Assembly (NCBI RefSeq): GCF_001422735.1
Contig: NZ_LMLZ01000002.1
Coordinates: 1-64,000, forward strand
Length of the DNA: 64,000 bases
Source of the DNA: Acidovorax sp. Leaf78
Lineage (GTDB): Bacteria; Pseudomonadota; Gammaproteobacteria; Burkholderiales; Burkholderiaceae_C
Direction of reading: 5' to 3'
Under the pieces are notes generated by a model. It made no database searches. It was given only the letters and a program-made list of their open reading frames with translations, and was not told the origin of the DNA. Both the position numbers and the translations under genes were made by a program. Of the stretch, positions 39,502-60,276 are shown one piece after another; the first letter of the stretch is position 1, and each line of letters starts with the position of its first letter.

Positions 39502-45429
<5,928 letters not shown>

Positions 45430-46465: not shown

Positions 46466-47638
<1,173 letters not shown>

Positions 47639-47731
47639 GTCCGTTGCCACCGGGGCGATCGCGCCATGCGCCGCCGCCCCGCTGAAGCCCACCCCACAAC
47701 GACACACCACAACACACCAGGGAGTTTGCCA

Positions 47732-49528
47732 ATGAGCACATCGGATTCACACCACACCGCCCAGCCACCCGGCGCCCCGCGCAGTACGCCGCGCCGCCAC
47801 TTCCTGGGCCAGGCAGGTGCCGGGCTGGCGGGTATGGCCGGTGGCGCCACGGTGGCGCCGGCGCTGCTCGGCGCCAGCGCAGCGGCGCAGGCGCAGCAGG
47901 GTGGTGCCTCGGCGGCTGCAGGCTACGACGCACAGTTTGTGCGCCGCGCCGAGCAGCTGCGCATTGACCTGGCGCGCGCCAGCGCTGCGGTGCCGATCCC
48001 GCCGCACCCCGTCAATGGCGACGATGCGCTGTACCCGAACAAGATCGGCTCGGACACGCGCGGCCTGCCCCACAACGCGCGCGGCGAGGTGGACCTTTCG
48101 GCATGGAACCTGGCCACCGCCGCCTTCGCCTCGCGCGAGCCGGCGGACTTCGAGAAGATCGTGCTGGGCGGAGCGCGCAAGCTGGTCAACCCCATCGGCA
48201 CGCTGGCGGTCAGCCTGGACGGGCTCAACGCCGCGCAGTTCGCGCTGCCGCCCGCGCCCACGCTGGCCGGCACGCAGCGCGCGGGCGAGGCCACCGAGAT
48301 CTACTGGGTGGCGCTGCTGCGCGACGTGCCCTTCAGCGAATTCCAGGACGGCACGCGGCACCCCGACGTGATCGCCGCCGCCGACGAGCTCAGCCGCGCT
48401 CCAGACTTTCACGGCCCCAAGGTCAATGGCCGGGTAACACCGCAGACGCTGTTCCGTGGTGCGGCCTGGTACGTGGATGGCAACGACCGCAGCGGCCGCA
48501 CCGGGCGCTGGGCCACGCCGCCGGGTGTGACGGATGGACCCTACATCTCGCAGTTCTTGTACCGCGACGTGCCGCTGGGCCCGCAGTCGCTGTCGGCGCG
48601 CATTCGCACCTACACGCCGGCCAACGAGTTCCTCACGCAGTACGACGAGTGGCTGAACGTGCAAAACGGCAAGGCCCCGGCCGGGCGCATTGCGTTCGAC
48701 CCCACGCTGCGCTACATCGCCACCACGCGCGACCTGGCGGCGTATGCCCATGCGGCAGTGGCCTTCAGCTTTGCGGCCAACCAGCTGCTGGGCACGCCTC
48801 TGTCGGCCACGCAGCCGGGCTATGGCGGGATCTACGCGGGCGACAAGAGCCTGGCACCCAGCAACCCGTACCTGAAGCTCAAGACCAGCGGAGGGGCGTC
48901 GGGCACGTTCGGGCCGGCGTATTTCCAGTCGCTGCTGTCGCTGGCCAGCTCGCTCGCCATCCGCGTCAACTACTACCAGAAGTGGTACGAGCAGCGCATC
49001 CTGCGGCCCGAGGCATTCGGCGGCCTGGTGCACCACCGGCTGGCGAACCGTGTCACCGAATACCCTATCCACGAGTCCTTCCTGGGCTCGCAGGCGCTCG
49101 AGCGCAGCCGCGCCAAGAACGGCAGTTATCTGCTGCCGCATGTGTACCCGGAGGGCGCGCCCATCCATTCGTCGTACCCCGGTGGCGCCGCCATCATTGC
49201 GGCGGTGACGGCTACGCTGCTCAAGGCCTTCTACGACGAGTCGCTGGTCATCCCGAACCCGGTGCAGCCCGACCCCAGCGACCCGACCCGCTTGGTGCCG
49301 TACCAGGGGCCGCCGCTCACCGTGGGCGGCGAGCTCAACAAGTTCGCGCTCAACTACGGCTCGGGCCGCACCGCCGCGGGCATCCACTGGCGCTCCGACG
49401 CCGCCGCGGCCTATGCGCAGGGCGAGGCGCTGGTCATCAGCCTGCTGCGCGAGCAAAAGCAGACCTTCCGCGAGCCGTTCGAGAGCTTTGCGTTCACCGG
49501 CTTCGACGGCCGCCGCATCGTCATCTGA
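47732..49528 (+). CDS. Vanadium haloperoxidase-like protein with altered active site
   Basis: A 598-residue protein of the PAP2/vanadium bromoperoxidase fold. It begins with a Tat-type signal (RRHFLGQAGAGLAG...AAAQA), so it is exported folded. Retained vanadate-pocket residues are K417 and R425 (KWYEQRILRPE) and R546 and H552 (GRTAAGIHWRSD). However, the usual PSYPSGH block reads HSSYPGGAA: family S becomes G484 and the acid-base H becomes A486. Catalysis in known haloperoxidases needs that histidine, so this may be a pseudoenzyme, a binding protein or a new activity. The start (ATG 47732) follows GGGAGTTTGCCA. It is between the activator and LLM monooxygenase genes. Confidence 0.8.
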   Translation: MSTSDSHHTAQPPGAPRSTPRRHFLGQAGAGLAGMAGGATVAPALLGASAAAQAQQGGASAAAGYDAQFVRRAEQLRIDLARASAAVPIPPHPVNGDDALYPNKIGSDTRGLPHNARGEVDLSAWNLATAAFASREPADFEKIVLGGARKLVNPIGTLAVSLDGLNAAQFALPPAPTLAGTQRAGEATEIYWVALLRDVPFSEFQDGTRHPDVIAAADELSRAPDFHGPKVNGRVTPQTLFRGAAWYVDGNDRSGRTGRWATPPGVTDGPYISQFLYRDVPLGPQSLSARIRTYTPANEFLTQYDEWLNVQNGKAPAGRIAFDPTLRYIATTRDLAAYAHAAVAFSFAANQLLGTPLSATQPGYGGIYAGDKSLAPSNPYLKLKTSGGASGTFGPAYFQSLLSLASSLAIRVNYYQKWYEQRILRPEAFGGLVHHRLANRVTEYPIHESFLGSQALERSRAKNGSYLLPHVYPEGAPIHSSYPGGAAIIAAVTATLLKAFYDESLVIPNPVQPDPSDPTRLVPYQGPPLTVGGELNKFALNYGSGRTAAGIHWRSDAAAAYAQGEALVISLLREQKQTFREPFESFAFTGFDGRRIVI

Positions 49529-49561: not shown

Positions 49562-50914
49562 ATGACCCAACGACAACTGCGCCTGGGCGCCTTCATCATG
49601 GCCACGGGCCACCACATCGCCGCCTGGCGCCACCCGGGCGCGCAGGCGGATGCGGGGGTGAATTTGCAGCACTACATCGCGCTGGCCCAGACGGCCGAGC
49701 GCGGCCTGTTCGACCAGGTGTTCGTGGCCGACAGCCCCGGCGTGCAGAACCACGGCAACGACGAGTCGCTGAGCCGCCAGGGCCGCCTGTCGTACTTCGA
49801 GCCGGTCACGCTGTGGTCCGCACTGGCGGCGGTGACCAAACACATCGGCTTTGTCGCCACCGCGTCCACCACGTATGAAGACCCGTACCTGCTGGCGCGC
49901 AAGTTCGCCTCGCTCGACCACATCAGCGGCGGCCGCGCAGCCTGGAACGTGGTGACCACCGGGGCCGACAACGTGTTCGGCAACTTCGGCCTGCAGGCCC
50001 ACCCCGACCCCGCCGTGCGCTACGAGCGCGCCACCGAGTTCGTGGATGTGGTGAAAGGGCTGTGGGACAGCTTCGACGACGATGCGCTCATCCGCGACAA
50101 GGCCAGCGGCGTGTACCTGGACCCGGCCAAACTGCACACCCTGAACCACGTGGGCAAGCACTTCCGCGTGAAGGGCCCGCTGAACCTGGAGCGCCCGCCG
50201 CAGGGCTACCCGGTCATCGTGCAGGCCGGCTCGTCCGAGGACGGCAAGGAGCTGGCCGCCGCCACGGCCGAGGCCATCTTCACCGCCTGGACCAGCCTGG
50301 CCGAGGCGCAGGCGTTCTACAGCGACGTGAAGGGGCGCCTGGCCAAGTACGGCCGCCGGCCCGAACAGCTGCTGGTGTTGCCTGGCATCTCGCCGGTGAT
50401 CGGCCGCACCGAAGAAGAGGCGCAGGCCAAATGGGCCGAGTTGCAGGCGCTGATCCACCCCGCCGTGGGCCTGGCCACGCTGGCCCCGTTCTGGCCGGGC
50501 GAAGACCTGGCGCGCTGGGACCTGGATGCGCCGCCACCGTACATACCCACGCCGCCCAGGGGCATCAACAGCCGCGCCCACGTGGTGCTGGAGCTGGCCC
50601 GGCGCGAGCAATTCACCGTGCGCCAGCTCTACGAATACCTGGCCGGCGCGCGCGGCCACTGGGTGGTGGTGGGCACGCCGCAAACCATTGCCGACCGCAT
50701 GCAGGAATGGTTCGAGAACGGTGCGGCCGACGGCTTCAACGTGATGCCACCAGTGCTGCCGCAGTCGCTCGACGAATTCGTGGACCTGGTGGTGCCCGAA
50801 CTGCAGCGCCGCGGCCTGTTCCGCACAGCGTACGAGGGCACCACGCTGCGCGAGAACCTGGGCCTGCAGCGCCCGCCCAGCCGCTATGCGCAGGCCGCCC
50901 GCAAGGCCGCCTGA
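49562..50914 (+). CDS. FMN-dependent LLM-class monooxygenase (NtaA/SnaA/DmoA family)
   Basis: A 450-residue flavin monooxygenase of the luciferase-like class. Signatures include RLGAFIMATGHHIAAWRHP, DHISGGRAAWNVVTT, GNFG and YPVIVQAGSSEDGKELAA. Enzymes of this subgroup oxidise nitrilotriacetate, dibenzothiophene sulfone, dimethyl sulfide or other organosulfur compounds using reduced FMN supplied by a separate reductase. No reductase gene is visible here. It is 33 bases behind the haloperoxidase-like gene with GGAGAGCCTGAC before the ATG. Confidence 0.92.
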   Translation: MTQRQLRLGAFIMATGHHIAAWRHPGAQADAGVNLQHYIALAQTAERGLFDQVFVADSPGVQNHGNDESLSRQGRLSYFEPVTLWSALAAVTKHIGFVATASTTYEDPYLLARKFASLDHISGGRAAWNVVTTGADNVFGNFGLQAHPDPAVRYERATEFVDVVKGLWDSFDDDALIRDKASGVYLDPAKLHTLNHVGKHFRVKGPLNLERPPQGYPVIVQAGSSEDGKELAAATAEAIFTAWTSLAEAQAFYSDVKGRLAKYGRRPEQLLVLPGISPVIGRTEEEAQAKWAELQALIHPAVGLATLAPFWPGEDLARWDLDAPPPYIPTPPRGINSRAHVVLELARREQFTVRQLYEYLAGARGHWVVVGTPQTIADRMQEWFENGAADGFNVMPPVLPQSLDEFVDLVVPELQRRGLFRTAYEGTTLRENLGLQRPPSRYAQAARKAA

Positions 50915-50989
50915 TCCGCAGACCGCACTGCTACCGCAGCAAGTCACCCACCCCGGCACATGCCCGTTTTCTCTACGCAAGGAGTTCCC

Positions 50990-51937
50990 ATGAGCACCGT
51001 CCTCGCCGAAAGGCCCCGCCATCTCTCCCTGACCACCACGCCTGGCACCGCAGCACTTGCCACCGCAGCACCTGGCGCAGACTGGTCGATCCGCCCGCTC
51101 GATGCGCCGCTGGGCGCCGAGGTGCACGGCATCGACGCGTCGCAGCCGCTCACGGCCAGCCAGGTCTGGGCGCTCAAGCAGGCATTGAAGCAGCACCACA
51201 TCCTGCTGCTGCGCGGCCAGCAGCTGGAGGACCCGCAGTTCCAGCGCTTCACCAGCTACTTCGGCAGCGTGTTCCGTGCGCCGACCAACGTGCCGGTGCT
51301 GGGCTCGTCGGACCCGTACGGCGGCGACACACCCGACATCGTCAAGGTGGCGAACGTCGATGATGGCGTGCTCGGTAATCAGGAGCTGTCGGCCCATGCG
51401 GACCACCACTGGACGCCCGTGCCGTCGTCGGGCTCGCTGCTGTACGCGCTGGAAGTACCCCGCGCCGGTGGCGACACCACCTGGGTCAACCTGGCCGCCG
51501 CCTACGACACGCTGGATGCCGCCACGCGCGCCGAGATCGACGCCCTGCAGCTCATTACCTACAACCCCTTCCTGCGCCGCCTGAAGCCGTTGGCGGGCGG
51601 CCATGCAACCTACCGCACGCCCGACATCGAGCCGGTGACACCCTTCGAGGTGCACCCGCTGGTGCGCACCCACCCCGAGTCCGGCCGCAAGATCCTGTAC
51701 CTGGGCGAGGCCACCGAGGTGGAAGTGGTGGGCGTGGACCCGGCCTACGGCGCCGCGCTGGTGGCCCGGCTGCGCGCGCACCTGCTGCAACCGCGCTTTG
51801 CCTACACCCACCGCTGGCAGGTGGGCGACATCGTGTACTGGGACAACCAGGCCACGCTGCACGCGCGCACCGCGTTCGACGCGGCGGACCGGCGTTTGCT
51901 CAAGCGCATCAGCCTGTCGGGCAGCCGGCCGTTTTGA
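50990..51937 (+). CDS. TauD-family Fe(II)/2-oxoglutarate dioxygenase
   Basis: A 315-residue TauD/TfdA-family dioxygenase. The iron-binding H-x-D is HADHHW and the distal histidine plus the 2-oxoglutarate arginine are in the C-terminal ATLHARTAFDAADRRLLKRIS. The N-terminal TauD core is LGAEVHGIDAS. It releases sulfite from a sulfonate or sulfate ester by hydroxylating the adjacent carbon. AAGGAGTTCCC gives a strong ribosome-binding site before the ATG at 50990. It co-locates with LLM monooxygenase, consistent with oxidation of organosulfur compounds. Confidence 0.9.
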   Translation: MSTVLAERPRHLSLTTTPGTAALATAAPGADWSIRPLDAPLGAEVHGIDASQPLTASQVWALKQALKQHHILLLRGQQLEDPQFQRFTSYFGSVFRAPTNVPVLGSSDPYGGDTPDIVKVANVDDGVLGNQELSAHADHHWTPVPSSGSLLYALEVPRAGGDTTWVNLAAAYDTLDAATRAEIDALQLITYNPFLRRLKPLAGGHATYRTPDIEPVTPFEVHPLVRTHPESGRKILYLGEATEVEVVGVDPAYGAALVARLRAHLLQPRFAYTHRWQVGDIVYWDNQATLHARTAFDAADRRLLKRISLSGSRPF

Positions 51938-52188: not shown

Positions 52189-52263
52189 CATTGAATGATG
52201 GAACGCAAATCCGCATGCGTTCCCACCGGTCCAGTCGAACCCCTTCTCCCGAGGAGATCCGTA

Positions 52264-53919
52264 ATGCCTGAACACATTGACCTCCACCGCGCCGAGCGCC
52301 TGGCAGCGCCCACCCACGACACCGACGTGCTGGTGATCGGCGGCGGCCCCGCCGGCACCTGGGCTGCCATTGCCGCCGCAGCCCGCGGCGCGCGCGTCCT
52401 GCTGGTGGACAAGGGCTTTTGCGGCACCTCGGGCGCCACCGCACCGTCGGGCACCGGCACCTGGTGGGTGCCGCCCGACCTGCAGGCCCGCACCGCCGCC
52501 AAGGCGCAGCGCGAGGCTGTGGGCGGTTTTCTGGCCAGCCACGAATGGATGGACCGCGTGCTGGACCAGACCTGGCACAACCTGCAGCAACTGGCCGACT
52601 GGGGCTATCCCTTTCCGGTGGACGATGCGGGCAACGAGCGGCGCAATTCGCTGCAGGGCCCCGAGTACATGCGCCTGATGCGCAAGCGGGTGAAGGCGGC
52701 GGGCGTGCGCATTCTTGACCATCACCCCGCGCTCGAACTGCTGGTGGATGACCACGGCCAGGTGCGTGGTGCAACGGGCGTCGCGGAGCCGGGCGATGTG
52801 CCCTGGGCCATACACGCCGGCGCCGTGGTGCTGGCCAGCGGTGGCTGTGCTTTTTTGAGCAAGGCGCTGGGCACCGATGTGCTGACCGGCGACGGCCACC
52901 TGATGGCGGCCGAGGCGGGCGCGGTGTTCTCGGGCATGGAGTTTTCAAGCGCCTATGGCCTGGGGCCCACGTTCTCGAGCGTGACGAAATCGCTGTTCTA
53001 CAACTGGGCGAGTTTTCGCGACCCGGGCGGTGCCGTCATCGACGGAGCAGGCTCGTCGCAGGGCCGCAGCATCATCGCGCGGCGCCTGATCAGCGAGCCG
53101 GTGTTTGCCGTGCTCGACAAGGCCGACGGCGCCGTGCGCGCCTGGATGCGGCAGGCGCAGCCCAACTTCTTTTTGCCCTTTGACCGGCTGGGGCTGGACC
53201 CGTTCACCCAGCCGTTTCCCATCACCTTGCGGCTGGAAGGCACGGTGCGCGGCACCGGCGGCCTACAGCTGCAGGGGCTCGATGGCGCCACGCGCGTGCC
53301 GGGGCTGTACGCCGCTGGCGACGTGGCATCGCGCGAGCCGATTTGCGGCGGCTTTACCGGCGGGGGCAGCCACAACGCGGCCTGGGCGCTGTCCACCGGG
53401 TTCTGGTCCGGCGCGGGTGCGGCCGACCACGCGCTGGCGCACCGCAGCACGCCCGCCGCTGCGCCGGTGTGGCGTGCGGGGCAGGTGGGGCTGGCGGCGC
53501 GCACGGTGGCCAGCGCTGGCGCAGCCACTGAGCGCATCGATCCGCAGGCCCTGGTGGCGGCGGTGCAGGCCGAAGTCTTCCCGCTGGAGCGCAACTGGTT
53601 TCGCAGCCGCGACGGGCTGGAGCCCTCGCTGCAGCGCCTGGACGCCCTGTGGGCGCAGGCCGAGCGCTGTGCCCCGGCCTTGCCCGAGGCACAGCGGCGC
53701 ACCCGCCAGGCCGTGGCCCTGCTGGCGCATGCGCGGTGGATGTACCGCAGCGCGTTGGCGCGCACCGAGACGCGGGGCATGCACCGGCGCACCGACTTTG
53801 CGCAGTTGGACCCGGTCCAGCAGCACCATGTGGTGGTGGGCGGGCTGCAGCAGGTGTGGACAGCGCGGCACCCGGCGGGCGATGGCGCTGCCGTGCAGCG
53901 CGAGGCGGTGGCCGCATGA
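52264..53919 (+). CDS. FAD-dependent oxidoreductase (fumarate reductase/AprA-like flavoprotein)
   Basis: A 551-residue flavoprotein. The FAD-binding dinucleotide motif is DVLVIGGGPAGTWAAIAAAA, the domain continues with a SGATAPSGTGTW segment, and the second FAD region is LYAAGDVASREPICGGFTGGGSHNAAWA. It resembles the flavoprotein subunit family that includes fumarate reductase and adenylylsulfate reductase AprA. Its stop overlaps the ferredoxin start (ATGA at 53916-53919). Such two-gene modules usually form an electron-transfer complex. The substrate is unknown; an organosulfur compound is suggested by neighbours. Confidence 0.87.
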   Translation: MPEHIDLHRAERLAAPTHDTDVLVIGGGPAGTWAAIAAAARGARVLLVDKGFCGTSGATAPSGTGTWWVPPDLQARTAAKAQREAVGGFLASHEWMDRVLDQTWHNLQQLADWGYPFPVDDAGNERRNSLQGPEYMRLMRKRVKAAGVRILDHHPALELLVDDHGQVRGATGVAEPGDVPWAIHAGAVVLASGGCAFLSKALGTDVLTGDGHLMAAEAGAVFSGMEFSSAYGLGPTFSSVTKSLFYNWASFRDPGGAVIDGAGSSQGRSIIARRLISEPVFAVLDKADGAVRAWMRQAQPNFFLPFDRLGLDPFTQPFPITLRLEGTVRGTGGLQLQGLDGATRVPGLYAAGDVASREPICGGFTGGGSHNAAWALSTGFWSGAGAADHALAHRSTPAAAPVWRAGQVGLAARTVASAGAATERIDPQALVAAVQAEVFPLERNWFRSRDGLEPSLQRLDALWAQAERCAPALPEAQRRTRQAVALLAHARWMYRSALARTETRGMHRRTDFAQLDPVQQHHVVVGGLQQVWTARHPAGDGAAVQREAVAA

Positions 53920-54281
53920 TCGAGTTGATCGATGCGGCCCGCTGCACCGGCTGCAACATCTGCGTGGCGGTATGCCCGACACGGGTGTTCGATGCCGCGC
54001 CGCCACTGGAGGCTGGTGTGGGCTCGGCTGGCCTTCTGCCCGTCATTGCCCGGCAGTCCGACTGCCAGACCTGCTTCATGTGCGAGCTGTACTGCCCGGT
54101 GGATGCGCTGTACGTGGCGCCGCAGACGGTGTCGGTGGCAGCGCTCACCGAGGCCGGGCCCGCGCAGCCTGCGGCCCCTTTGTGGGGCAGCTACCGCCGT
54201 GCCGTGGGGTGGGATGTGCGGGACGGCAGCACGGCTCGGCTGGACCAGAGTTACCACCTGCTGGGTGCTGCGCAACGTTGA
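53916..54281 (+). CDS. 4Fe-4S dicluster ferredoxin (AprB-like partner)
   Basis: A 121-residue ferredoxin with two cysteine motifs, CTGCNICVAVCP and CQTCFMCELYCP, each able to hold a [4Fe-4S] cluster. The C-terminal roughly 40 residues (GSYRRAVGWDVRDGSTARLDQ) lack cysteines and resemble the tail of AprB-like subunits. It is translationally coupled to the flavoprotein gene, so both probably form one enzyme. Confidence 0.87.
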   Translation: MIELIDAARCTGCNICVAVCPTRVFDAAPPLEAGVGSAGLLPVIARQSDCQTCFMCELYCPVDALYVAPQTVSVAALTEAGPAQPAAPLWGSYRRAVGWDVRDGSTARLDQSYHLLGAAQR

Positions 54282-54327
54282 GCAGGGGCAAGTCCATGGT
54301 CGTTACCGGCTGCGTTTTCTTCATCCC

Positions 54328-54871
54328 CCGTTCGGGCTGAGCCTGCCTAAACCTCGCGCGGCGCTTCGACAGGCTCAGCGTGAACGGTTGGGGGTTGTGA
54401 CGGGGTGAACAAGGGAGGCCACTGCGGTTGCGCGCAGTGGCCTTGTTTTTGGTGATGCCTGGTGCGGGTTGCGTTCGATGCATCCCCACCGTTCGGGCTG
54501 AGCTTGTCGAAGCCTTGCGCGGCGCTTCGACAAGCTCAGCGTGAACGGGTGGGGGTATGCGGATGGTGAAGAAAAAAGGCCACTGCGTTTGCGCGCAGTG
54601 GCTTTTGTTTTTGGTGATGGCTGGTACGGATTGCAATCGATCCATCCCGACCGTTCGGGCTGAGCTTGTCGAAGCCTCGCGCCGCGCTTCGACGGGCTCA
54701 GCGTGATCGGGTTGGAGCATGTGGATGGTGAAGAAAAAAGGCCACTGCATTTGCGCGCAGTGGCCTGGGTGTGGGTGATGGCCGGCACGGGCTGCGTCCG
54801 ATCCATTCCCACCGTTCGGGCTGAGCCTGTCGAAGCCTTGCGCGGCGCTTCGACAGGCTCAGCGTGAACGG
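54328..54871. repeat. Tandem array: 161-bp unit, 3.4 copies
   Basis: Four family B palindromes begin at 54328, 54489, 54651 and 54812 (spacings 161, 162, 161). Between them are three hairpins of the GGCCACTGCG-N6-CGCAGTGGCC type at 54417, 54578 and 54740, with TTTTTGGTGATGG- or TGGGTGATGG-type tails. Each unit is therefore palindrome, short spacer, hairpin, T-rich spacer, and a CATCC-C-ACC end. The array fills the gap between the ferredoxin stop and the convergent permease stop. The T-rich hairpins may act as terminators for both directions. Confidence 0.92.
54417..54442. terminator. Hairpin 1 within the tandem array
   Basis: A GGCCACTGCG stem, GTTGCG loop and CGCAGTGGCC stem, followed by TTGTTTTTGG. 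It is terminator-like on the + strand, first behind the ferredoxin gene. Confidence 0.7.
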
Positions 54872-54881
54872 CAAAGGGATC

Positions 54882-55742
54882 TCAGCGCGCCACCCCCTGC
54901 CACGCCGTGAAGTGCCGCTCCAGCCGCTGCAGCGCATAGTTCAGCGTCACGCCGATGGCCGTGATCGCGATGATGCCGAAGTACATGTCGCCGATCAAGA
55001 AGCTGTACTGCGCATAGATGATGAGGTAGCCCAGCCCGGCCTTCGCGCCCACCATTTCCGCGGCGATCAGCACCAGCATGGCCGACGCGGCAGCCAGGCG
55101 GATGCCGACGAAGATCGTGGGCACCGACGCGGGCAGGATGACCTTGACGAACAGCTGGCGCGGCGTGGCGCCCATGGTGCGGGCGGACTTGACCAGCAGC
55201 GGGTCCACCTGCCGCACGGCGGCGATGGTGTTGAGCAGCAGCGGCCAGGCGCAGGCATAGACCACGATGGACAGCTTGGACACTTCGCCGATGCCCAGCA
55301 GCAGCAAGAACACCGGCAGCAGCGCCAGCGGCGCGGTGTTGCGCAGCAGCTCGATCAGCGGGTTGAGCGCCTGGCCCAGCCGCTGGTACCAGCCGATGGC
55401 CAGGCCCAGCGGAATGGCGGCCACGATGGCGATCGACAGGCCGCCGAGCGAGCGCGCCAGGCTGATGGAGGTGTGCTCCCACAGCTGGCCGTTTTGCGCC
55501 AGCACCCAGCCCGCAGCCAGCACTTCGGTCAGGGGCGGCAGGAAGGTCGGGTCGGTCAGGCCCAGGCGGGGCGCCAGCTCCCACAGCACGGCCAGCGCCA
55601 GCACCAGGCCGGAGCGCCAGGCGCCGTTGGCCACGCGGCGGGCCAGGCGCAGCCACAGGGTGGGCAGCGCCTGTGCGGCATGGGGCAGGGCGGTTGCGGG
55701 TTGCTGTTGCGCAGCGTGCGCGGGCAGGGCGATGTCAGACAT
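54882..55742 (-). CDS. SsuC-type ABC transporter permease
   Basis: A 286-residue inner-membrane permease of the sulfonate/taurine/nitrate importer group. About six membrane segments are evident (SGLVLALAVLWELAPRLG, SLGGLSIAIVAAIPLGLAIG, LALLPVFLLLLGIG and the C-terminal block). The EAA loop reads ARTMGATPRQLFVKVILPASVP. It is the last of three leftward genes and overlaps the ATPase gene by 8 bases (start 55742 against ATPase stop 55735). Confidence 0.92.
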   Translation of the reverse strand: MSDIALPAHAAQQQPATALPHAAQALPTLWLRLARRVANGAWRSGLVLALAVLWELAPRLGLTDPTFLPPLTEVLAAGWVLAQNGQLWEHTSISLARSLGGLSIAIVAAIPLGLAIGWYQRLGQALNPLIELLRNTAPLALLPVFLLLLGIGEVSKLSIVVYACAWPLLLNTIAAVRQVDPLLVKSARTMGATPRQLFVKVILPASVPTIFVGIRLAAASAMLVLIAAEMVGAKAGLGYLIIYAQYSFLIGDMYFGIIAITAIGVTLNYALQRLERHFTAWQGVAR

Positions 55743-56634
55743 GGTGGGACTCCTTGATCACGGGTTGGGCGGCGATGCGGCTGCGGCGTTCGTGGCGCGC
55801 GGACGCGACCTCGTCGTGCAGCAGGCCCCAGATGCGGTGGCGCAGCTCGCCGAAGAGCGGCAGCGAGCGGATGTCGTCGGTCTCTGCGCGCAGCGATTCG
55901 GGGATGTCCACGATTTCCTTGATGCGGCCGGGGCGGGTGGTCATCACCGCCACGCGCTGGCCCAGTACCACGGCCTCGTCGATGCCGTGGGTGATGAACA
56001 CGATGGTCTTGCCGGTGCGCTGCCAGATGTCCACCAGCTCTTCCTGCAGCGTCTCGCGGGTCTGCGCGTCCAGTGCGGCGAAGGGCTCGTCCATCAGCAG
56101 CACCTGGGGCTCGTAAGCCAGGCTGCGGGCAATCGCCACGCGCTGCTTCATGCCGCCCGACAGTTCGTGCGGATAGCGCTGCGCGAAGTCGGACAGCCCC
56201 ACCAGCTGCAGGTAGTGCGCGGCCTTCTCGCGGCGCTCGCGCTTGCCCAGGCCCGCGACTTCGAGGCCGAAGGCCACGTTGTCCAGCGCAGTGAGCCAGG
56301 GGAACAGCGCGTACTGCTGGAACACCACGCCCCGGTCCCGCGCGGGGCCGGTGATGGCCTTGCCGTCGATGAGCACCTGGCCGCTGGTGGGCGGCGTGAG
56401 GCCCGCGAGCAGGTCGAGCAGGGTGGACTTGCCGCAGCCGCTCGGGCCCACCAGCACCAGGAACTCGCCGGGGCGGATGTCGAGCGTCACGTCCTGCACG
56501 GCGACAAAGCGCTTGGACGGGCCGCCGTCGTCCGCACGCACGGTGAACTCCTTGGTCACGTGCTCGAAGCGGATCTTGGCCGGCGCGTTGGTCGCGGCAG
56601 TGGCCGCGGTGTGGGGATGAATGGCGCTGGTCAT
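55735..56634 (-). CDS. SsuB/TauB-type ABC transporter ATPase
   Basis: A 299-residue ATPase. Walker A is GPSGCGKST, the Q-loop is FQQYALFPW, the signature is LSGGMKQR, and Walker B/D-loop reads VLLMDEPFAALD; the H-switch is FITHGIDEAV. The N terminus carries a leader of about 20 residues and the C terminus a 45-residue tail. It overlaps the binding-protein gene stop by 4 bases. It energises organosulfur uptake with the neighbouring permease and binding protein. Confidence 0.92.
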   Translation of the reverse strand: MTSAIHPHTAATAATNAPAKIRFEHVTKEFTVRADDGGPSKRFVAVQDVTLDIRPGEFLVLVGPSGCGKSTLLDLLAGLTPPTSGQVLIDGKAITGPARDRGVVFQQYALFPWLTALDNVAFGLEVAGLGKRERREKAAHYLQLVGLSDFAQRYPHELSGGMKQRVAIARSLAYEPQVLLMDEPFAALDAQTRETLQEELVDIWQRTGKTIVFITHGIDEAVVLGQRVAVMTTRPGRIKEIVDIPESLRAETDDIRSLPLFGELRHRIWGLLHDEVASARHERRSRIAAQPVIKESHHV

Positions 56635-57653
56635 TTGCTGGCCGCCAGTTTGTCCACGCCGCCGTTGGCATACGGGTTGAACGCGTTGGTGTACAGGTCG
56701 GCGGCCTTGAGCTGGCCGGGCTTGACCACCTCGTCCTTCACCAGCCAGTCCACCCAGATCTGCAGTTCCTTGTCGGTGATGAGGCCGCCCTTGCCGGCCA
56801 CGCCGGTGCTCTTCCAGTACTGGATGGCGTCGGCGGTCTCGGCGCGTTTGCGGCCTTCGATGATCTTGGTGTAGCGCGCCCGCACTTCAGCCGGTGGTGT
56901 GTTGCGCGCCCATTCGATGGAGCGGGCCAGGGCCGACACCAGGTGACGGCTGGTGTTGGGGTTCTGCTCGATGAACTTGTTGTGCAGCACCAATGCGCCG
57001 CCGGTGAAGTTGCCGAACAGGTCGCGGTCCTTGAACAGCGGGCGGATGCCGCCGCGCTCCAGCGCCTTGTCGCGCAGCACGCCGCCGAGCGTGGAGACTT
57101 CGACATGCCCCTGGCGCAGCGCCTGTTCGCCGGTGACGGGCGGCGTGGCCACCAGCGTGACCTGCTTGGCCTCGGCGTTGGTGAGTTTGCCGCGCTCCAG
57201 GTACTCGCGCAGCATGAACTCGTGGTGCGCGCCCAGCGTGTTCACCGCGACCTTCTTGCCGATGAGGTCGCGCGGGCCCTTGATGGGGCTGTCGTCCTTG
57301 ACGTAGTAGCCGTTGTAGGTGTTGTCGTCCGAGCCGTAGTAGCCCAGCACGGCCTTGACCGGCGCCTTCTTGGCCGCGAGCTTGATGATGGCGCCGTAGA
57401 AGGCGCCGCCGATGTCCACATCGCCGGTCACCACGGTCTGGATGTCCTGCGGGCCGCTGATGGTGTTGCCCACCCACTTGGACTTGAGCGGTGCGAGGTA
57501 GCCCAGGTCTTCGGCCAGTTCGATCCAGACCACCTGGCCGGCCCAGCCCTGGTAGCGGATTTCGGATTTCTCCAGGTTCTGCGCGGCGGCAGGGGCCGCC
57601 AGGCCCAGCGCCAGCGCGGAGACCAGCAGGAAGCGTTTCGACAGATCGAGCAT
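56631..57653 (-). CDS. SsuA-type ABC transporter substrate-binding protein
   Basis: A 340-residue periplasmic binding protein with signal LVSALALGLAAPAAAQ and a mature sequence starting NLEKSEIRYQGWAGQVVWIELAEDLG, a form typical of SsuA/TauA-like proteins (NMT1/SsuA superfamily). Motifs include GPQDIQTVVTGDVDIGG, GKKVAVNTLGAHHEFMLREYL and TPPVTGEQALRQGHVEVS. It is first in the importer operon, downstream of a consensus sigma-54 promoter. The substrate is inferred as an organosulfonate or ester. Confidence 0.9.
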   Translation of the reverse strand: MLDLSKRFLLVSALALGLAAPAAAQNLEKSEIRYQGWAGQVVWIELAEDLGYLAPLKSKWVGNTISGPQDIQTVVTGDVDIGGAFYGAIIKLAAKKAPVKAVLGYYGSDDNTYNGYYVKDDSPIKGPRDLIGKKVAVNTLGAHHEFMLREYLERGKLTNAEAKQVTLVATPPVTGEQALRQGHVEVSTLGGVLRDKALERGGIRPLFKDRDLFGNFTGGALVLHNKFIEQNPNTSRHLVSALARSIEWARNTPPAEVRARYTKIIEGRKRAETADAIQYWKSTGVAGKGGLITDKELQIWVDWLVKDEVVKPGQLKAADLYTNAFNPYANGGVDKLAASK

Positions 57654-58621: not shown

Positions 58622-59578
58622 TCAGTGGGGCCGGGCGTCCGCCATGCTGCGCCGAGCCAGGTGCACGCCCGCCAGCATGCAGCGCACCGACCCGCCCGCC
58701 AGTTCGATGGTCGGCACGGCCAGCGGCAGCAGCGTGGCGCTGCGCTCGATGACGGCCTTCTGCGCCGCGGTCAGGCTGGCGGCGGCGCGCGCCGACAGGG
58801 CCAGCACACGACCCCGGGCGCCGGTCAGCTCCAGCGCATTGCCCGCGAATTCGCCGATCTGGTGGGCGCTCAGTTCGATGACGTCGCGGCCGGTTTCGCG
58901 CAGGCGGCTTCGCACAGCCTCACGTCGCAAGGGGTCGGTGATCAGGTGGAACCCGCCCAGCGCGAAGTCGGTGCCCACGCAGAGCATCACGTTGGTGTGA
59001 TAGCACGGCCGGCCCTCTCCATCGGCCGTGGCAAAGGCCATGGGCTCGTAGTTGAAGTGGGTGCAGAACCGCTCCAGCGCCACCGGGTCGGCGCGGTTCG
59101 ACTGCGCGGTGTAGGCGATGCGGCCGATGTGGTCGAGCACCATCGCGCCGGTGCCTTCGAGGAACATGTTGTCGGCCTCCAGCCCCGAGTAGTCGATCAC
59201 GTCCTGCACCCGGTACTCGGCCTTGAGCAGGTCCAGCACGTCGCTGCGGCGCTCGCGCCGCCGGCTCTGTGCGTACATCGGGTACACGGCCACGTGGCCG
59301 CCGGCGTGGGTGGAGAACCAGTTGTTGGGGAAGACCGCATCGGGCGCGTGGCGCTCGCCCAGGTCGTCGAACAGGTGCACGCGCACGCCGGCGGCTTCGA
59401 GTTTCGCTGCGGCCTGGGTCACCTCGGCGTATGCCTTGCGCGCGATGTCGTCCGGGGCGGCGGTGGTGGTTACGGACTGAAAGGCGTTGTCGTGCGCGGT
59501 GTCCGGGTTGGGGTGAAAGCGATGGGGGCGGACCATCACGACGGCGGAGGGGGCTTGGGCGGATGCGGGGGAGGGCAT
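58622..59578 (-). CDS. ctlX: CtlX-type citrulline/amidino hydrolase (arginine deiminase superfamily)
   Basis: A 318-residue amidino-hydrolase. Motifs: MVRPHRFHPNPDTAHDNAFQ (substrate region), FPNNWFSTHAGGHVAVYPM, the catalytic HTNVMLCVG region, and the nucleophile C300 in GGSVRCMLAG. It is divergent from an Lrp/AsnC regulator, the usual CtlX arrangement. The start is chosen as the ATG at 59578; an in-frame ATG at 59620 would add 14 residues and neither has a strong ribosome-binding site. It likely hydrolyses citrulline or a related ureido/guanidino compound. Confidence 0.85.
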   Translation of the reverse strand: MPSPASAQAPSAVVMVRPHRFHPNPDTAHDNAFQSVTTTAAPDDIARKAYAEVTQAAAKLEAAGVRVHLFDDLGERHAPDAVFPNNWFSTHAGGHVAVYPMYAQSRRRERRSDVLDLLKAEYRVQDVIDYSGLEADNMFLEGTGAMVLDHIGRIAYTAQSNRADPVALERFCTHFNYEPMAFATADGEGRPCYHTNVMLCVGTDFALGGFHLITDPLRREAVRSRLRETGRDVIELSAHQIGEFAGNALELTGARGRVLALSARAAASLTAAQKAVIERSATLLPLAVPTIELAGGSVRCMLAGVHLARRSMADARPH

Positions 59579-59710
59579 GGCGGTCAGTGGTTGGAAGATG
59601 GCGGCAAGGTGGCGGTGCATGAATTTTCCGGACAGTGCCAGCCAACCAACAGACTTCAAACTGATCGAAATGCAGCAAAATCTGGCGTTCTGATCACCCA
59701 GAGGCCCACT

Positions 59711-60142
59711 ATGAACAGGCTGGACGACACCGACCGCGAAATCCTCAGCATCCTGCGGGCCGACGCGCGCACGCCCGTGGCCACACTGGCGCTCAAACTG
59801 CGCGTCTCGCGCGGCACCGTGCAGAACCGGCTGCACAAGATGGAGGAAAGCGGCGTCATCGTGGGCTACACCGTGCGCCTGCGGCCCGACTCCGAGCCCC
59901 AGCGCATCCGCGCCTGGATGAGCATCGCGGTGGAGGGCAACGCCGCGCCCGAGGTGATCCGCGCGCTGCGCGGCGAGCCCATGGTGGGCACGCTGCACAC
60001 CACCAATGGCCGCTGGGACATCGTGGCCGAAGTGCGCGCCGAGAGCCTGGAGGCCTTCGACGCGGCGCTGGGCCGCATCCGCCTGACGCCCGGCATTGCG
60101 AACACCGAGACGAGCATCCTGTTGTCGACGTACAAGGCCTGA
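59711..60142 (+). CDS. Lrp/AsnC-family transcriptional regulator
   Basis: A 143-residue Lrp-type regulator. The HTH is LDDTDREILSILRADARTPV then VSRGTVQNRLHKMEE, and the C-terminal RAM domain carries GTLHTTNGRWDIVAEVRAES. Divergent placement from ctlX with 132 bases (or 90 with the longer start) between them suggests that it regulates ctlX in response to an amino acid. Confidence 0.9.
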   Translation: MNRLDDTDREILSILRADARTPVATLALKLRVSRGTVQNRLHKMEESGVIVGYTVRLRPDSEPQRIRAWMSIAVEGNAAPEVIRALRGEPMVGTLHTTNGRWDIVAEVRAESLEAFDAALGRIRLTPGIANTETSILLSTYKA

Positions 60143-60276
60143 TGCCGGTGCGCCTGCGGGGCGGAAGGTGCACTGGCACCTGTGCGACACCGGCTAGGGG
60201 GTTTCCGCAAGACCCCTGAGGAGTCGGTTGAAGTCCAATGGCGAAGTCTTTGTTTTTGCTATTGAGGAGCCCCGCC

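Follow-up and report, generated by a model that had tools for sequence, protein, structure and literature searches.

A single-origin clade of exported vanadium-bromoperoxidase-fold proteins with alanine in place of the acid-base histidine, and its possible link to organosulfur scavenging

Introduction

The PAP2 signature comprises motif 2, PSGH, and motif 3, R-x5-H-x3-D. PAP2 phosphatases use the histidine of motif 2 as their general acid, and the same histidine aids peroxide activation in haloperoxidases. Its replacement by alanine in the Curvularia chloroperoxidase CiVCPO (H404A) is said to remove nearly all of the chlorinating activity.

In the known vanadium-dependent haloperoxidases (VHPOs), vanadate is bound to an axial histidine and is held by a lysine, two arginines, a serine and a histidine, as described in excerpts of PMC10278073. 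The deposited CiVCPO structures named in excerpts of PMC8407142 include an apo form with sulfate (1VNS) and H404A with vanadate (1VNG). The cradle is therefore able to hold sulfate, and loss of the histidine alone does not abolish vanadate binding. The H404A enzyme thus has, by laboratory mutation, an alanine at the same acid-base position as the protein described here, but it belongs to a different branch (Z 11.2, 14% identity) and retains the serine. A precedent for other chemistry on this fold is NapH3 (8cxl), a VHPO homologue that carries out an alpha-hydroxyketone rearrangement; it lies in a distant chloroperoxidase-like branch (Z 13.2, 12% identity).

The closest described systems are the vanadium bromoperoxidases (VBPOs) of Ascophyllum (1qi9, 5aa6), Corallina (1qhb, 1up8) and Acaryochloris (5lpc), which share their full-length fold (Z 30-37) with a protein encoded in Acidovorax sp. 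Leaf78. The gene lies in a 64,000-nucleotide stretch of contig NZ_LMLZ01000002.1, the whole of which is referred to here as the window. The cradle residues and the axial histidine are common to both, whereas S416, H418 and the R396/W338 position of the bromoperoxidases are replaced by Gly, Ala and Tyr. Unlike the bromoperoxidases, part of the clade to which this protein belongs has sulfur-type gene neighbours. Those in the window comprise an ABC transporter, a binding protein, a monooxygenase, a flavoprotein and a ferredoxin, and may in this resemble the ssu/asf clusters (asf as given in excerpts of PMC4267179). The asf clusters have the LysR-type regulator AsfR; the regulator adjoining our gene is sigma-54 dependent, and the scan for regulators covered part of the neighbouring open reading frames.

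No occurrence of haloperoxidase was found in two papers on sulfonate utilisation (PMC4267179 and PMC2864759), and haloperoxidase was not found together with sulfonate and sulfate starvation in open-licence PMC text. The combination of VHPO, sulfonate, monooxygenase and ABC transporter gave a sole match in that text, which is unrelated by its title, and no mention of the clade was found in excerpts of PMC4926216 and PMC13102585.

The gene, its export signal and its fold

The gene (47732..49528, + strand) is a real open reading frame of 598 amino acids, with an AGGGAG sequence located eight bases 5' of the ATG at 47732; an alternative in-frame ATG at 47666 would give 620 residues. Residues 21-25 (R21-R22-H-F-L, 47792..47806, +) form part of a Tat-type signal. 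This RR motif was found in all 16 clade members, in line with the Tat export given in the initial annotation. The motif also occurs in 7 of 20 other homologues (the fragment L007 being counted in the 20), so export does not set the clade apart. A second VHPO was not found in the same genome at E <= 0.001, where the gene is the single match.

A phmmer search of PDB sequences (E <= 1) gave ten distinct matches, all of them vanadium bromoperoxidases or a named haloperoxidase. Ascophyllum 1qi9 was the best match (E 9.6e-56), followed by 5aa6, 1qhb, 1up8, 5lpc and mutants. The Pfam PAP2 profile (PF01569) scored 12.4 bits, below its cut-off of 27.2, which is weak evidence as only one of eight other homologues scanned passes; the NCBIfam profiles gave no match to the 598-residue protein at E <= 0.01. 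An AlphaFold2 model built from 17 sequences (pLDDT 68.6, pTM 0.74) was used, and an earlier one built from 11 close sequences (pLDDT 34) was set aside. The model superposes on 1qi9 with Z 37.0 and rmsd 3.1 over 485 aligned residues, as against Z 11-13 for the bacterial chloroperoxidase, NapH3 and PAP2 acid phosphatases; the comparison (VIA-align) covers Foldseek-ranked chains, and families outside that ranking may also be similar. Residues 473-483 have pLDDT under 50 and the block 481-490 has a mean of 66, and because of this low confidence around the altered loop we make no claim on its geometry.

The altered active site

Residue numbers of 1qi9 were counted on the phmmer alignment. The first two cradle residues, K417 and R425 (48980..49006, +), stand on K341 and R349, while G485 stands on G417, R546 on R480 and H552 on H486. 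R546, H552, which occupies the position of the axial vanadate ligand or nucleophile, and D556 are encoded at 49367..49399 (+). As had been claimed, K417, R425, R546 and H552 are kept at these positions; together with D556 they are invariant in all 16 clade members. G485 of the oxyanion cradle is also kept, and R546, H552 and D556 follow the motif 3 pattern in 16/16.

The altered loop, H479-SSYPGGAA487 (49166..49192, +), stands on H411-P-S-Y-P-S-G-H-A of 1qi9, which places H479 on H411, G484 on S416 and A486 on the acid-base residue H418. The PSGH of motif 2 reads PGGA and its histidine is absent. The sequence Y-P-G-G-A was observed to be common to all 16 distinct clade relatives; position 486 is Ala in 16/16 of them and His in 19/19 other homologues, and no charged or nucleophilic residue occurs there in the clade. 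The proposed loss of the acid-base histidine is thus confirmed for the whole clade. The initial annotation had also pointed to loss of the family serine. G484 does stand on S416, but this is not special, since the serine position is occupied by Ala in 18 of the 19 His-bearing homologues and by Ser in one; serine loss was therefore rejected as a diagnostic change. H479 is invariant in both groups (16/16 and 19/19). Being equally kept where the acid-base histidine is present, H479 is ancestral and did not arise as a replacement, although it may assist catalysis.

Other positions also separate the clade from the 19 His-bearing homologues. Tyrosine is found at position 414 in 16/16 clade members (others Trp 12, Arg 6, Tyr 1), Ala at 476 in 15/16 (others Ser 17, Cys 2), Ser at 480 in 15/16 (others Pro 18, Ala 1) and Asp at 108 in 16/16 (others Phe 15, Tyr 4). 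The clade also has extra residues around 247-263. By alignment, position 414 corresponds to R396 of the Corallina pilulifera VBPO, where the R396W mutant (7qvw) has Trp. Replacement of the equivalent Arg by Ser in the Acaryochloris enzyme gave efficient chlorination, according to excerpts of PMC11871015.

Distribution, phylogeny and selection

The genome counts are of samples, each at the E limit used. Among genomes of the same family (E <= 1e-20), matches were found in 7/399, of which six carry the GGA block and the seventh has His. Matches occur in 3 of 47 genus genomes (all GGA), in 14 of 369 class genomes (GGA in the own genome only) and in 3 of 398 phylum genomes (two GGA). For genome G791, the corresponding values are 7/248 in its family, three of these being GGA, and 1/289 in its class. 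A pattern search of genome contigs gave ten loci, all GGA, where the patterns were derived from the query and so reach close relatives only. Plasmid records gave five matches, the best being from Microvirga ossetica and carrying GGA. Removal of duplicates (L008, L009, L004, L002, L003, L017 and L026) and of the fragment L007, which keeps the His, left a final set of 16 GGA genes and 19 His-bearing genes. The search for homologues with the same G-G-A block that had been suggested for this locus brought the set to 16 distinct genes, that of the window among them.

With P0001 as query, no relative was found in viral contigs. Wider alignments gave distant His-bearing VHPO relatives only (L063-L074, IMG/VR), which were kept out of the 19. 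By motif scan, the HPSYPAGH block is intact in five of six distinct viral proteins, L071 giving no motif match, and one of the VHPO-encoding viral contigs is 618,736 bases long, the size of a giant virus.

In a maximum-likelihood tree of the 35 genes, which is unrooted, the GGA genes form one side of a branch with support of 100/100 and a stem length of 0.93. The same branch was recovered with the motif columns removed (SH-aLRT 100), and none of 500 label shuffles was as clustered as the GGA label. The GGA genes have one origin and form a clade; the block is neither a one-off nor a product of chance. We take the His form to be ancestral as all the solved bromoperoxidases matched carry His. Furthermore, dN/dS was found to be 0.061-0.271 over seven pairs by NG86, with the first 65 codons excluded, and 0.011-0.20 for six of those pairs by YN00. 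The clade is under purifying selection.

The gene of Bradyrhizobium sp. SSUT77 groups with betaproteobacterial genes, apart from the other Bradyrhizobium genes, a placement that suggests horizontal transfer. This copy (L014) is 68% identical to that of the window, those of L015 and L016 being about 55% identical. The NtaA/DmoA-family monooxygenase near the L014 gene is only 48% identical to that of the window. These values suggest that the gene was transferred and was separately paired with NtaA/DmoA-family genes.

Gene neighbourhood

In the window, an NtrC/NifA-type sigma-54-dependent activator (46466..47638, +) is located 93 bases 5' of the VBPO-fold gene, and homologues of this activator adjoin the gene in L050, L051, L011 and L012. 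A strict pattern found no sigma-54-like site before the window's gene. Of 13 upstream regions, three (L011, L012 and L006) carry such a site 82-97 bases 5' of the gene, as against 0.03 expected per region from the window density, L011 and L012 being sister species.

An NtaA/DmoA-family FMN monooxygenase (49562..50914, +; TIGR03860 over cut-off) follows 33 bases 3' of the gene. Its PDB relatives include YtnJ, DszA and DmoA, and the family also works on sulfur-free compounds. Only five such monooxygenases exceed the cut-off in the whole genome, so that one adjoining the gene by chance is unlikely. A TauD/AtsK-type dioxygenase (50960..51937, +; PF02668) begins 45 bases after the monooxygenase; 2,4-D dioxygenases are found among its PDB relatives beside TauD and AtsK, and it falls under the NCBIfam taurine dioxygenase cut-off. 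An FAD flavoprotein resembling fumarate reductase or NadB (52195..53919, +) is found 257 bases after the dioxygenase, and a 4Fe-4S ferredoxin gene (53916..54281, +) overlaps its stop. We presume these two to be possibly AsfA-like and AsfB-like, respectively. On the opposite strand are an ABC transporter permease (54882..55742, -), an ABC transporter ATPase (55735..56634, -) and an NMT1/SsuA-like substrate-binding protein (56631..57653, -), which passes the PF09084 cut-off and scores 64.4 bits with the sulfonate profile TIGR01728, under the cut-off of 163.5. The substrates of these organosulfur-type neighbours, as read from the sequence, are uncertain.

Other features of the window include several copies of a short repeat (one frame reads LSLSKRRARLRQAQPER) at about 54300-54900, between the ferredoxin and permease genes. 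A 1975-residue tandem double UvrA is encoded at 39502-45426 (+), with UvrA matches along both halves, and the product of 58625-60190 (-) contains a domain of the dimethylarginine dimethylaminohydrolase type (PF19420).

The 15 other clade loci were searched for marker genes with tblastn, and counts out of 16 add the window; the His-bearing comparison consists of ten loci with wider flanks. A sulfonate-type ABC transporter (binding protein, permease and ATPase) was found in 9/16 clade loci as against 1/10 His-bearing loci (L061), an NtaA/DmoA-type monooxygenase in 6/16 against 0/10 and a TauD-type dioxygenase in 5/16 against 0/10. For the transporter, with L013 excluded for its 6.8-kb contig, 9/15 against 1/10 gives a Fisher p of 0.016, which is optimistic given the relatedness of the loci and the choice of markers from within the clade. 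The initial annotation described the gene as encoded with organosulfur genes, and organosulfur-type neighbours are present in 9 of the 16 loci but not in the Bradyrhizobium/Microvirga branch (L039, L048, L049, L015, L016 and L035), where tblastn found no sulfur-type marker in any of the six. None was found on the L013 contig, and the monooxygenase and TauD markers were not found in L050 and L051. TauD-type neighbours in the other loci are only 31-32% identical to that of the window. In addition, a sulfatase and a divergent O-acetylhomoserine sulfhydrylase adjoin the gene in L037, and the same sulfhydrylase lies about 2 kb from the gene in L013.

Discussion

The protein is an exported member of the VBPO fold from a single-origin clade, in which the acid-base His is replaced by Ala and the serine position by Gly while the cradle, H552 and D556 are kept. 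We consider it probable from these residues that the clade protein is not a working haloperoxidase, and the neighbours and the signal together lean towards a role in extracytoplasmic organosulfur scavenging. Our preferred reading, to which we give a probability of roughly 0.4, is that the clade is a non-haloperoxidase branch whose oxyanion cradle has been co-opted for extracytoplasmic scavenging of organosulfur compounds. The initial annotation had left the choice between a changed enzyme and an oxyanion binder. The invariant cradle and axial His and the clade-wide loss of the acid-base His are in line with this, but the serine argument offered with it does not discriminate.

Under the organosulfur reading, the two absent apical side chains would free room for the organic part of R-O-SO3 or R-SO3, and the cradle would now hold an organosulfur oxyanion in place of vanadate. 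H552 would attack the organosulfur group as a nucleophile, the chemistry being either sulfuryl transfer or a hydrolysis in which the leaving group requires no protonation, and the product would then be imported by the adjoining transporter. PAP2 enzymes rely on this histidine as general acid, so that its loss should handicap hydrolysis too. It is only speculatively that we propose a conversion of the vanadate pocket, through loss of the acid-base side chain and the adjacent one, into the active site of a new exported class of sulfuryl-transfer, sulfate-ester or sulfonate-processing enzymes acting upstream of SsuABC-like uptake.

The main rival explanation, which we regard as doubtful, is that vanadate is still carried on H552 for peroxide-driven oxidation, for example of a thioether to a sulfoxide or sulfone that is cleaved by the adjoining monooxygenase. 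Sulfoxidation by VBPOs is known, DszA and DmoA are among the PDB relatives of that monooxygenase, and of the vanadate contacts only the Ser and the acid-base His are missing. However, as the lost His aids peroxide activation, oxidation should suffer, and L050 and L051 are without the monooxygenase marker. Vanadate binding as such is compatible with an alanine at this position, as the CiVCPO H404A structure in excerpts of PMC8407142 indicates.

The second rival, an unlikely one, takes the protein as a pseudoenzyme, that is, a periplasmic non-catalytic binder or sensor of oxyanions. This would agree with a retained binding cradle from which the catalytic His is gone, and loci with sulfur-type neighbours do carry transporter genes. 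Yet the transporter loci already encode their own binding protein, and a mere binder has no obvious need for the invariant H552 and D556.

It is more improbable still that the protein remains a haloperoxidase in which the acid-base work is done by H479 or Y414. H479 is invariant, and Y414 is clade-specific and stands at the R396 site of the Corallina pilulifera VBPO. However, H479 is equally invariant alongside the acid-base His elsewhere, so it already serves a different function, and halide oxidation would leave the sulfur-type neighbours unexplained. Gene decay or an error in sequencing was rejected as next to impossible: nothing was found in its favour, 16 distinct genes have intact frames and share the block, and NG86 dN/dS over seven pairs is 0.061-0.271.

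The clade constitutes a natural experiment on the role of the acid-base histidine and on the re-use of a vanadium oxidase pocket. The annotation 'vanadium-dependent haloperoxidase' on such genes may misstate their chemistry. Scavenging of sulfonates and sulfate esters is a main sulfur route in soil, and if the sulfur link is true, the clade would add an exported step to this bacterial scavenging.
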